A stretch of 37,098 nt of DNA from contig JAGUYV010000047.1 of the NCBI GenBank assembly GCA_020061125.1, forward strand, positions 1-37,098. Direction: 5' to 3'. Below are positions 6,225 to 11,472 of this stretch, in pieces. A model generated the notes under the pieces. It searched no databases. It saw only the letters and a list, made by a program, of their open reading frames with translations, and had not been told where the DNA came from. Within the stretch, counting starts at the first letter, position 1; every line of letters starts with the position of its first letter. The position numbers and the translations under genes were made by a program. Source of the DNA: a bacterium. GTDB taxonomy: Bacteria; UBP15; UBA6099; DSWB01.

Positions 6225-7814
6225 TCACCGAGGCTCCGCGTCCCCGCAGGGATTGGTTTCCATTCCCAGATTCAGCTTCTCACTGACATAAAGACCGAGA
6301 AGCAGGGCCGCGAACAGGCCCGCACAGACCCAGCCGAACACATCACCATATTTCGTATAAAATGTCGTGTCCGTGCGGGCATAAAGCTCTCCGTGGATGT
6401 TCTGTGGCTCGAACAGGCTGGAAGAAGCGGCGACTCGGCCTTGGGGGTCAATGATGACCGTGAGGCCGGAATTGGACGCCTGCGCGAGCCAGCGGCGGTT
6501 TTCCACGGCGCGCAACTGCGCCAGCGCCACATGCTGCGCGGCCGCGGGCGAGTATTTGAACCACGCATCGTTTGTGACCACAAGCAGCATTTCCGCGCCT
6601 CGCCGCGTCATGCCGCGCGCGATGTGCGGCGCCATGCTCTCGAAGCAGATCAGCGGACCGACGCGGCCGTGCTCGGTCTCGAATATGTGGTACCGGGTTC
6701 CGCGTTCCGTGTCGTCCTGGTACACGGCGCGGTCGAACCACTTGCCGAGCGCTGGCACTTGCGATAACTCACGGCGCCAGGGGATGAACTCGCCGCCGGG
6801 GACAAGCTGCATTTTGTCGTACCGGCCCAGATACCGACCGTCGGGCGCGATGCCGATCACGGAATTGTAGTTGCCGATGAACACGCCGGAGATGAGCGTG
6901 GCGTCCGCCATGTCCAGCAGCATCGCGGTTTCGGGCCGGGGTGTCATGTCCTCCTGCAGCAGCCACTGAACGGGCAGAACGCTCTCCGGCCACACGATCA
7001 CATCGGGCCGCGGATCGTGTTTGGACGCGGTCATGGCCATGCTCCAGAACACGCGCTGCATTTCATCCAGCGAGGCGATGATGCCGCCCTCGATGGCCTC
7101 GTGCTTTTCATCCTGCGCGAAGCTGGGTTGAACCATGGCGATGCGCATGGGATGGCGCCGGGGCGGTTCTCGTTTCGACAGGGAATGGGCGCCATATCCC
7201 ACGGCCATGGCGAACAGCGCGCCCGTGACAAGGAACGAAATTCTGTAACGCGCGCCCTGGCCCGACAGAGTTTTGTAAAGCACGAGGTTGCATGTGACAA
7301 CCAGAAACGAAATTCCATACATGCCGGTGAGGGACGCGATTTGCATCACGGCCGTGTTTTTCGCCTGCGACACAGCCAGTGACCACCACGGGAACGCGAA
7401 CGAGCCGCGGGACATGAGCAGTTCGAGCGCGGCCCAGCCCAGCGCCGGGACGAACAATGCGACGGGCGAACGCCTGTCCAGCGCCCACCCTGCGGCCAGG
7501 CCCCATGGAATGAAAATCACCGGGATTACTATCACGAAAATCAGATAGCCCACCCACGCCGGGGAACGCGCGTGGCAAAACCAGTAAAAGAGCAGGCCGA
7601 AAAAGAACACGCCGAAGAAATAGGATATGAGCGCGCGGGCGCGGGCGCTGCGGCCGGAGAGCGCGAAAAACAGGGGGGCCAGGCCAACCCAGGGAAGCAG
7701 GTACAGGTTGTAATGGGGGTACCCGGAAACCAGGGCGAGGGCGCTCAAAGGCGGCGCGGCCATGGGCAGGATGCACTCGAAATGCCGGGATTTCAAACCG
7801 AAGTGATTCCCCAT
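6225..7814 (-). CDS. lnt: Apolipoprotein N-acyltransferase
   Basis: 529 aa; N-terminal TM helices, nitrilase-like domain with VIVWPESVLP, KMQLVPGGEFIPW, GPLICFESMAPH, NDAWF motifs. Confidence 0.93.
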   Translation of the reverse strand: MGNHFGLKSRHFECILPMAAPPLSALALVSGYPHYNLYLLPWVGLAPLFFALSGRSARARALISYFFGVFFFGLLFYWFCHARSPAWVGYLIFVIVIPVIFIPWGLAAGWALDRRSPVALFVPALGWAALELLMSRGSFAFPWWSLAVSQAKNTAVMQIASLTGMYGISFLVVTCNLVLYKTLSGQGARYRISFLVTGALFAMAVGYGAHSLSKREPPRRHPMRIAMVQPSFAQDEKHEAIEGGIIASLDEMQRVFWSMAMTASKHDPRPDVIVWPESVLPVQWLLQEDMTPRPETAMLLDMADATLISGVFIGNYNSVIGIAPDGRYLGRYDKMQLVPGGEFIPWRRELSQVPALGKWFDRAVYQDDTERGTRYHIFETEHGRVGPLICFESMAPHIARGMTRRGAEMLLVVTNDAWFKYSPAAAQHVALAQLRAVENRRWLAQASNSGLTVIIDPQGRVAASSSLFEPQNIHGELYARTDTTFYTKYGDVFGWVCAGLFAALLLGLYVSEKLNLGMETNPCGDAEPR

Positions 7815-8239
7815 TCGGCGAATGCTTTTTCCTGCGTGTCCGCGAAAACGATGAGATTGTCCACTCCGAGGGCTTTCATGGCGTTTAAGGGGGCGTTCTG
7901 AACGCCGGTTACAATGATTTGCTGCTTGGTGCGCGTGGTTTTGTAATACATGGTGACGAGCGTGCCGATGCCCGTGCTGTCAATGAACTCGACTTTGGAG
8001 ATGTCAATGATTACGCGCTTGCGCTTGATGCGGGTAAAGATTGAAGTAAGTTCCCCGTGGTTGGTGTAATCAATGTTTTTGGTTTTGGCCTCAATCACGA
8101 ACACGCCTTCGCGCTCGTCCGTCACGAAATCGTGGTTCATGGGGTGCCCGCACCGGCTGCAGAAGTTGTTTGTGCTTGGAACGACGTGCCCGCAGTTGCC
8201 GCAGAACATGGCCGCTTCACCTCGCAAGGGGTTGTGCAA
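7793..8239 (-). CDS. Zinc-ribbon plus STAS-domain protein (anti-sigma-factor-antagonist-like)
   Basis: MFCGNCGHVVPSTNNFCSRCGHPM zinc ribbon followed by STAS motif RVIIDISKVEFIDSTGIGTLVTMYY; more likely start at 8209. Overlaps the annotated lnt start by 22 bp. Confidence 0.8.
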   Translation of the reverse strand: MHNPLRGEAAMFCGNCGHVVPSTNNFCSRCGHPMNHDFVTDEREGVFVIEAKTKNIDYTNHGELTSIFTRIKRKRVIIDISKVEFIDSTGIGTLVTMYYKTTRTKQQIIVTGVQNAPLNAMKALGVDNLIVFADTQEKAFAEWGITSV

Positions 8240-8266: not shown

Positions 8267-8430
8267 CCGTATCCGTCAATTGTGATCGAGTGTGTTTTGG
8301 GGGCGCCGCAATCCGGGTCCGGCCGCGTCCGGTTTCGTGGAAATATCCAGCGGGACATAGTAGTATTTACAGCATTGGGTCCCCCGCCTCAACGGGAGCA
8401 ACTTTTCGAAAAGGAAAGGCGGTTTTGCAC

Positions 8431-11400
8431 ATGACGGAGAACGCTTCGGCCAACTGGGGCCGGTTCGTCAAACCAGAGATGCACACGCTGCTGAAAGCGC
8501 TGCGCCTGGATGTGGCGTATCATCGCGCGTCCGGCGATTACATGTATTACTTTAATGGAGTGGGCGAAGAAGTCAGGGTCACGGATTTCGCCGGGGGCAT
8601 GGGCGCCACGGTTCTGGGACACAACCACCCGGAGATCAGCAAGGCGCGCCTGGATGCCATGAGCGCGGAAACCCCCATGCACGCGCAGGGGTCAGTGCGC
8701 ACGGCCGCGGGCGATCTGGCCGCAAAACTCGACGAGCTGTTTCCCGGCAAGGAGCCGCGAATCACAGTATTCACCAATACGGGCACGGAAACCGTGGAGT
8801 GCGCGCTCAAGCACGCGGAATTCAACCGCGTGCAGAAACTCGCGGCCCTGGGACGGCGCATCTACCGCAACTGCAATGAGATTCGCGAGTATTACCGTCT
8901 TCATCACGATGCGCAGCTTCCGCGCGCGTACCGCGAACTAGACATCGAAACGCTGATCGGCGACATCATGGCGCAGCTCGTGACTCTGCGATCCCTGCGG
9001 CCGGTGGTTATCGCAGCCGAGCGCTCGTTTCACGGAAAAACCACGGGTTCGCTGCGTATCACCGGCAACCCGGCATACCGCGAGGCCTTCGCCCTGTTGA
9101 GCGGCATCGAGGCCCGCTTCGTGAAATACAACGACGCGGATGACCTGCGCCGCGCGCTCGAAAAATCCTATGTGGGCGTGAAATTTCTGGAACACCGCAA
9201 CGGCGCCATCCGCGTCACCGAGGAAAAATTTCTGAATGTCGCTGCGTTCATCATGGAGCCGGTACAGGGAGAGGGCGGCATCCACATCGCGTCCAAGAGC
9301 TACATGAAGGCTGTGGAAAAGCTGCGCGCCCGGCATGGTTTCGAGTGGGCGCTGGACGAAATTCAATCCGGCATGGGCCGCACGGGCCGCCTGTTCGCAT
9401 TCGAGCATTCAGGCGTGGACCCGGACAATATTGACTATGTGCTTTTGAGCAAGGCGCTGGGCGGCGCGCAGACCAAGATCGGCGCCATGATGGTTCGCAA
9501 GTCCATCCACGACGGCCGCTTCGGGCTGCTGCACACCTCCACTTTCGCCGAGGATGAAGAGTCCGCAATCGCCGGACTCAAAAGCCTTGATATTCTCACG
9601 CGCAACAACGCGCGCCTGGTGCAGGGCGCGCAGGAAAAAGGGCAGTATCTACTTGGCGAACTCGAAAAGCTCAAGGAAAAATATCCGGAAGTCATCAAAG
9701 CCGTGCGCGGCATCGGGCTGATGGCGGCGGTGGAGTTTGCGCTCTTCAGCGATAATTCGTCCCTGTTCTTCAACCGCAGCGGCGCGCAGGGCGTGTTCGG
9801 CTCCCTGCTCACCGGCTACCTGTTCCACGAGCACCGCATCCGCACCACGCCGCCGCTGAACGCGCTCGTATCCCACGCCCCGTACAATCTGATCCGCATC
9901 GAGCCGTCCCTATACATTTCCAGAAAAGAGATTGACCGGCTCATCCACGCCCTGGACTTGGCGTGCGAAATGGTGACAAAATGCAACGCATACATGTTCT
10001 CGAAGTACATCGTGAATCTCGAAACGCCCGGGCACACGGGCGAGATTGAAGATTTCTCCAGGCCGGTTTACACACCGCCGGACGACCCGGCGTTCAAGAA
10101 CGCGCGCCGCATGACTTTTCTCATCCATCCCCTGGACATACATCAGGTCATGGAGGAGTTCGACCCGTCCATGAACCGCTTCCGCAAGGATGTTGACGAG
10201 GAAACGGGTTTGAGCGAACGCGAACGGTACTGGGACATGCTGGCCCCGCTCATGGAGTCGTTCGTGTACCGGATCGTCAATGTTAAGTCGCCGCGCACCG
10301 GGGACAAGGTTCATGCCAAGTTCATCGCGTTCCTGTACACCACCAAGCAGATGAACCAGTTGCGCCGCAAGAATCCGCAGGCCCTGGTTCAAGGGGTGCA
10401 GAAAGCCGTGGATCTGGCCGCATGCGAGGGCGGCGACATCGTGGGCCTGGGAGCGTTCACCTCCATCGTCACGCACAACGGCCTGGACCTGGACGACACC
10501 TACATCCGCATCACAAGCGGCAATTCCTACACCACGGCCCTGATATGGCAGTCCATTCTGAAAGCCGCGCAATACATGGAAACGGACCTGAACGCATGCG
10601 TGGGCGCAGTGGTGGGCGCGGCCGGAAACATTGGCAGCGTGACCGCCAGCCTGTTGAGCGAGGACATTCCGAAAATTTATCTCATCGGCCGCGGCCGCCC
10701 GGGCGTGCTCAACGACATGCGTGACGTGGCCCGCACCATCTATGCGGACGCCGTGGACATCATCCGCACCACGCCGCCCGAAAAGCTCAAGGGCCTGCCC
10801 GCGGCTCTGGCGCGCGATCTGTTTCTGCCCTACATGGCGCTGAACTCGCGCGAATTCCGATTCAATCCCGAGGCCATAGACGATTTTATCAAGAAAAATT
10901 ACAAAGGCCGCGACGCGCGCATCGCCAATCTGATCAAGTCCGTGTTCTACCGCAGGCCCGACGAAAACATCGGAGACAGCGTGTACGAGGCCGTACGCAT
11001 CAAGCATGTGCGTGACCCGTATCTGATTCCGACCACGAACATTGAGCGCGGGCTGCGCGAGGCGGACATTGTGGTGTCCGCGGTGAGCGCGCACACGCAG
11101 ATCATAGACACGGCCTGGATCAAGCCCGGCGCCATTGTGAACGATGTGAGCCTGCCGCCGAGCATCTCAATCGAGTTGTACAGGAACCGGCCCGATGTGC
11201 TCGCCATACAAGGCGGTATCGGCCATCTGCCCGAGTACCTGGACCTGGGCATCCCCGGCCTGGCCGTGGGCGCGACTCTCGGGTGCATGGCGGAAACCTT
11301 CATCCTCACCATGATGAACATGATTGACAACTACAGCTTCGGCAAGATCACGCGCCAGCAAGTGGTCAAGATCTGGGAAGCCGGCCGCATCCTCGGCTTC

Positions 11401-11472
11401 GGCCTCGCAGCCATCAAGTACAAGGACATGAAGCTGACCCGTGAAGTGGCCAGGCAGGTGAGGGGGAAGTAG
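8431..11472 (+). CDS. Fusion of class III PLP-dependent aminotransferase (residues ~1-545) and acyl-ACP reductase (AAR)-like domain (from residue ~561)
   Basis: Start chosen at MTENASANWGRF (track ORF begins upstream at 8170). Aminotransferase: NTGTETVECALKHAEF, FHGKTTGSLRITGN, EPVQGEGGI, DEIQSGMGRTG, LLSKALGG (PLP Lys codon 9451-9453). AAR: LGAFTSIVTHNG, TSGNSYTTALIWQ, VVGAAGNIGSVTASLL (10615-10635), GCMAETFILTM (Cys codon 11284-11286). Confidence 0.85.
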   Translation: MTENASANWGRFVKPEMHTLLKALRLDVAYHRASGDYMYYFNGVGEEVRVTDFAGGMGATVLGHNHPEISKARLDAMSAETPMHAQGSVRTAAGDLAAKLDELFPGKEPRITVFTNTGTETVECALKHAEFNRVQKLAALGRRIYRNCNEIREYYRLHHDAQLPRAYRELDIETLIGDIMAQLVTLRSLRPVVIAAERSFHGKTTGSLRITGNPAYREAFALLSGIEARFVKYNDADDLRRALEKSYVGVKFLEHRNGAIRVTEEKFLNVAAFIMEPVQGEGGIHIASKSYMKAVEKLRARHGFEWALDEIQSGMGRTGRLFAFEHSGVDPDNIDYVLLSKALGGAQTKIGAMMVRKSIHDGRFGLLHTSTFAEDEESAIAGLKSLDILTRNNARLVQGAQEKGQYLLGELEKLKEKYPEVIKAVRGIGLMAAVEFALFSDNSSLFFNRSGAQGVFGSLLTGYLFHEHRIRTTPPLNALVSHAPYNLIRIEPSLYISRKEIDRLIHALDLACEMVTKCNAYMFSKYIVNLETPGHTGEIEDFSRPVYTPPDDPAFKNARRMTFLIHPLDIHQVMEEFDPSMNRFRKDVDEETGLSERERYWDMLAPLMESFVYRIVNVKSPRTGDKVHAKFIAFLYTTKQMNQLRRKNPQALVQGVQKAVDLAACEGGDIVGLGAFTSIVTHNGLDLDDTYIRITSGNSYTTALIWQSILKAAQYMETDLNACVGAVVGAAGNIGSVTASLLSEDIPKIYLIGRGRPGVLNDMRDVARTIYADAVDIIRTTPPEKLKGLPAALARDLFLPYMALNSREFRFNPEAIDDFIKKNYKGRDARIANLIKSVFYRRPDENIGDSVYEAVRIKHVRDPYLIPTTNIERGLREADIVVSAVSAHTQIIDTAWIKPGAIVNDVSLPPSISIELYRNRPDVLAIQGGIGHLPEYLDLGIPGLAVGATLGCMAETFILTMMNMIDNYSFGKITRQQVVKIWEAGRILGFGLAAIKYKDMKLTREVARQVRGK

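Follow-up and report, generated by a model that had tools for sequence, protein, structure and literature searches.

The window, a stretch of 37,098 nucleotides from a bacterium of a small uncultured phylum, carries a complete gene for a protein that joins a class III aminotransferase to a thioester reductase resembling cyanobacterial acyl-ACP reductase (AAR) (Table 1). The initial annotation had proposed such a fusion at 8431-11472 on the plus strand, and both profile and structure-database matches bear it out; the motifs and codons given there are exact, including Lys341 at 9451 (AAG), Cys952 at 11284 (TGC) and Met561 at 10111. The frame stays open upstream of the ATG at 8431, where a TTG lies at 8170, but alignments with orthologues begin at about the ATG, not in the upstream extension. 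Because full-length orthologues with 59-61% identity to the window protein over about 1010 aligned residues occur in other genera and families, the gene is not a chance open reading frame. A separate start at Met561 is unsupported, this Met being kept within the phylum and absent from most other fusions.

Table 1. Coordinates of the fusion gene, its domains and catalytic residues, and of the two paralogue operons.
Feature	Position	Strand	Basis or remark
Aminotransferase (class III)-acyl thioester reductase (AAR-like) fusion gene, complete, 1013 aa	8431..11472	+	Open frame; full-length orthologues
Likely ribosome-binding site AAAGGAAAGG before the ATG at 8431	8413..8425	+	Read in the sequence; consensus only
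Class III PLP aminotransferase domain, CrmG/PigE/PatA-like, residues 28-476	8512..9858	+	PF00202 (Aminotran_3), E 3e-61
Lys341, predicted PLP Schiff-base lysine in LLSKALGG	9451..9453	+	AAG codon; kept in 10/10 fusions covering the site
AAR-like thioester reductase domain, residues 554-1013	10090..11469	+	NF053554, TIGR04058, PDB 4ppm and 6jzq, Foldseek on a low-confidence model
Dinucleotide-binding loop VVGAAGNIGS, residues 727-736	10609..10638	+	G729, A730, G732, I734 and G735 invariant in 12 sequences
Insertion region beyond the Rossmann core, residues ~755-868, predicted helical	10693..11034	+	Length fixed in the phylum
Cys952, equivalent of AAR Cys294, PtTamH Cys887 and PigE Cys296	11284..11286	+	TGC; invariant in 12/12 fusions
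Glycyl radical enzyme-activase-fusion operon, own genome	L023:7183-14167 (G000:C387)		Conserved in a second family
Glycyl radical enzyme-activase-fusion operon, other family	L019:4096-11301 (G001:C151)		Conserved with G000

Cross-locus comparison of the window-type copies shows no consistent neighbours. Around the window copy, no conserved pathway genes indicate what an amine would be for, and no polyketide-type genes lie near it. Immediately upstream, in divergent orientation, is a gene for a small zinc ribbon and STAS domain protein (7793-8239, minus strand). Genes resembling apolipoprotein N-acyltransferase (Lnt) lie near the fusion in two genomes (6225-7814, minus strand, in the window and L020:12444-13928, minus strand). 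The two copies are 25% identical and differ in orientation, so we rejected them as a conserved neighbour and regard the proximity as probably coincidental.

Two domains with conserved catalytic residues

Among solved structures, the N-terminal half is closest to CrmG of the caerulomycin pathway (PDB 5dds, E 1e-69), the match spanning residues 20-508. CrmG is a stand-alone aminotransferase of 523 residues, whereas the window aminotransferase is part of a fusion. The match takes in a helical insertion at residues ~130-185 of the aminotransferase domain, which insertion lengths indicate is present also in the Photobacterium fusion. In our tree, the aminotransferase domains of all fusions form one group (88/88) next to E. 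coli PatA, separate from the other class III aminotransferases of the window's genome. This topology, with moderate support and some long branches, suits a single ancient fusion event.

Over its C-terminal 460 residues, the protein matches both PigE (model NF053554, E 1e-30) and AAR (model TIGR04058, E 1e-16), the latter at 61.2 bits and thus far below the cut-off of 449.7 bits. The full protein scores 340.2 bits against NF053554, an equivalog model with a curated cut-off of 850 bits. The same half also matches the solved structures of AAR (6jzq/6jzu) and PigE (4ppm). When the halves were searched separately, no unrelated dehydrogenase outscored AAR and PigE-type reductases for the C-terminal one, so that its description as AAR-like holds at the level of best matches; by profile comparison, however, it is nearer the PigE reductase domain than cyanobacterial AAR. 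Both a GxxGxxG loop (GAAGNIG) and the candidate catalytic Cys952 are present in this domain, and a loss of catalytic residues, which would have spoken against the annotation, is not seen in the sequence alignments, in which Lys341 and Cys952 are present and conserved. In structure prediction, the top six Foldseek matches of a C-terminal model with a mean pLDDT of 61 were all AAR (E ~1e-7, with low TM-scores). AlphaFold models of the C-terminal half alone and of the full protein (mean pLDDT 40, from a 4-sequence alignment) are too weak for active-site geometry.

Substitutions set the domain apart from AAR. Alignment to the solved structures places Leu908 at the position of AAR Tyr247, and PigE likewise has Leu there; mutation of Tyr247 to Ala in AAR abolishes substrate binding (PMC7089970). 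In addition, the AAR residues R73, R79 and K80, which bind aldehyde-deformylating oxygenase (ADO), align with R, Q and G in the window protein, two of the three being replaced (PMC7089970).

The insertion that the initial annotation noticed past the Rossmann core is real. From the dinucleotide loop to the Cys, the spacing is exactly 223 residues in all seven phylum members, compared with 173-188 in proteobacterial fusions and with 132 residues, G162 to C294, in S. elongatus AAR (PMC7089970), so that the window reductase has 91 more residues here than the cyanobacterial enzyme. The insertion region itself measures 114 residues in 7/7 phylum sequences versus 64-77 in other fusions, and is predicted to be helical with pLDDT mostly between 75 and 92 in the AlphaFold model of the C-terminal half. 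Judged from these alignments and predictions, a helical insertion of ~35-50 residues is the main anatomical distinction of this phylum's fusions.

Fusion copies in the phylum, in Pseudomonadota and in a glycyl radical enzyme operon

A search for the same fusion in other genomes found it in the phylum and on Pseudomonadota plasmids. Among the seven genomes sampled from the phylum, five carry at least one copy. In the window's own genome, which is 79% complete, the only AAR-type matches are the window fusion and a second one on contig 387. A plasmid collection gave 10 matching records, and all six of those examined share the domain order of the window protein. Homologues occur in Photobacterium, Paraburkholderia phymatum, Leisingera and other Rhodobacterales. 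On P. phymatum pBPHY01 (L014:6240-9215) an acyl carrier protein (ACP) domain is added at the N-terminus, giving a tri-domain ACP-aminotransferase-AAR protein, and on a Leisingera thetidis plasmid (L012:6594-10781) an AMP-binding domain is added at the C-terminus, a chain that may combine the activation of an acid with its reduction and amination. Genes for a LolA-like protein and for an MMPL transporter adjoin the Leisingera fusion. Both kinds also follow the fusion in Photobacterium, together with two SDRs, and ketosynthase-like genes precede it there. An extra ACP or AMP-binding domain, or a place in a ketosynthase cluster, as seen in these relatives, fits acyl-thioester-to-amine chemistry. 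Fusions of Rhodovulum and Haematobacter (L013:6678-10117 and L016:3020-7212) lie near proteins with VPLPA-CTERM sorting domains, and the exosortase XrtD is encoded near the Rhodovulum locus.

The paralogue fusions, 51-52% identical to the window protein, lie in a different setting. In the window's own genome (G000) and in a genome of another family (G001), the operon order is glycyl radical enzyme, radical-SAM activase and second aminotransferase-AAR fusion, and the three proteins are 77-81% identical between the two. The glycyl radical enzyme is found in all seven phylum genomes, with no fusion adjoining it at the loci examined in a third family. It has GCVE and RISGYNAYF motifs and lacks the Asp that diol and glycerol dehydratases have at the aligned position. 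Its N-terminal ~125 residues form a conserved extension (L023, L019, L024-L027), for which weak matches to the Pfam SCP2 family (E 0.006-0.14, below the cut-off) tentatively suggest an SCP2-like, sterol-carrier or lipid-binding domain. Our literature search, with limited coverage of subscription journals, found no earlier case of a glycyl radical enzyme partnered by an activase and an aminotransferase-AAR protein, and this operon is the least familiar part of the system. As a speculation that we consider rather improbable, its products could synthesise or modify a lipid bearing an amine by a hitherto undescribed anaerobic pathway, with the window copy supplying the same or a related amine.

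Proposed activity and its alternatives

Two characterised fusions bear directly on function, and they were the sole relevant precedents for transaminase-reductase fusions that we found in the literature, again with limited coverage of subscription journals. PtTamH of Pseudoalteromonas tunicata, from the pathway to tambjamine YP1, was shown in vitro to make the C12 amine from C12 acid by way of PtTamA-bound acyl-ACP, requiring NADH and using L-Glu, and the aldehyde intermediate is observed when the amino donor is omitted (PMC9594044). Like the window protein, it has an N-terminal class III transaminase and a C-terminal AAR-type reductase with GxxGxxG and a catalytic Cys. Compared from the published description, it has 941 residues to the 1013 of the window protein and a PLP lysine at K340 rather than K341, and by that description the phylum-specific insertion sets the window protein apart. 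The PtTamH gene belongs to the tambjamine cluster, which also encodes the ACP partner TamA, whereas the window gene stands alone. PigE, which serves MAP formation in prodigiosin biosynthesis, takes a 3-acetyloctanoyl thioester to the amine H2MAP in cell lysate (PMC8341465). It has the same two domains, is the best NCBIfam match of both window halves and shares the Leu at the Tyr247 position. However, its order is reversed, with the reductase first, it acts on a branched keto-thioester, and the window protein falls well under its equivalog cut-off. The novelty implied by the initial annotation is unsupported: PtTamH, proven to make an amine from fatty acyl-ACP, shares the domain order, and PigE has the two domains the other way round. 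Because of the PtTamH precedent, the proposed chemistry is already established for this domain arrangement. The window protein is best regarded as a distant TamH relative from an uncultured phylum, not as a new type of enzyme.

By analogy with these enzymes, we consider it likely that the window protein is a TamH-type bifunctional enzyme, converting an acyl thioester through an aldehyde to a primary amine, most probably an activated fatty acid to a fatty amine. The acyl chain would be transferred from acyl carrier protein (or CoA) to Cys952 of the C-terminal domain, and a hydride from NAD(P)H would, as in AAR, reduce the bound thioester and release the aldehyde. The N-terminal PLP domain, through Lys341, would then transaminate the aldehyde to the primary amine, the amino donor probably being glutamate or another amino acid. 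We infer both reduction and transamination from characterised relatives. The route from acyl-ACP to amine suggested at first thus gains support from homology, as both domains, their order, Lys341 and Cys952 match characterised enzymes. Our own observations in its favour are the homology of both domains and their order, the conservation of the catalytic residues and of full-length orthologues, and the absence of ADO; against it stand the C-terminal score far below the AAR equivalog cut-off, the change of Tyr247 to Leu908 and the missing pathway neighbours.

A variant compatible with this explanation, which we hold to be possible but unlikely, is the same chemistry on a short, functionalised or polyketide-type thioester, as in PigE, in place of an ordinary fatty acyl-ACP. 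The product would then be an amino ketone, a cyclic imine or a special amine and not a simple fatty amine. The better match of the reductase half to PigE than to AAR, the Leu that it shares with PigE at the position of AAR Tyr247 and the varied clusters of the relatives all speak for it, and the phylum-specific insertion may change substrate binding. The window copy, however, lacks nearby polyketide-type genes, and nothing in our analysis separates the candidate substrates. We think it very unlikely that the protein works in the catabolic direction, deaminating an amine to an aldehyde and oxidising this to an acyl thioester. In principle either half reaction can be reversed, and the nearest E. 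coli aminotransferase in the tree, PatA, is a catabolic putrescine aminotransferase, but the characterised PtTamH and PigE work reductively and the ACP and AMP-binding domains fused in relatives indicate biosynthesis.

Least probable is a reductase domain serving an alkane or alcohol pathway with an incidental aminotransferase: despite homology to cyanobacterial AAR in the dinucleotide loop, the catalytic Cys and overall (TIGR04058; PDB 6jzq-6jzz), that enzyme is a single-domain partner of ADO, whereas the window protein has lost ADO-binding residues and keeps Lys341 and the entire aminotransferase domain across families. The initial annotation saw no ADO gene in the window, and our search with PF11266 found none in any of the seven phylum genomes, the window's own being incomplete. 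An alkane product is unlikely for this reason, and we rejected the route.

If the preferred reading, a TamH-type enzyme, is right, the known range of acyl-ACP-to-amine fusions, drawn from natural-product clusters in Pseudomonadota, widens to include an uncultured phylum, whose fusions would be divergent enzymes for making amines from fatty acids. That the gene is common in the phylum and lies outside any recognisable cluster is a hint that its role may be routine, for example one involving a lipid. Finally, the fusion paralogue draws attention to a conserved operon containing a glycyl radical enzyme.
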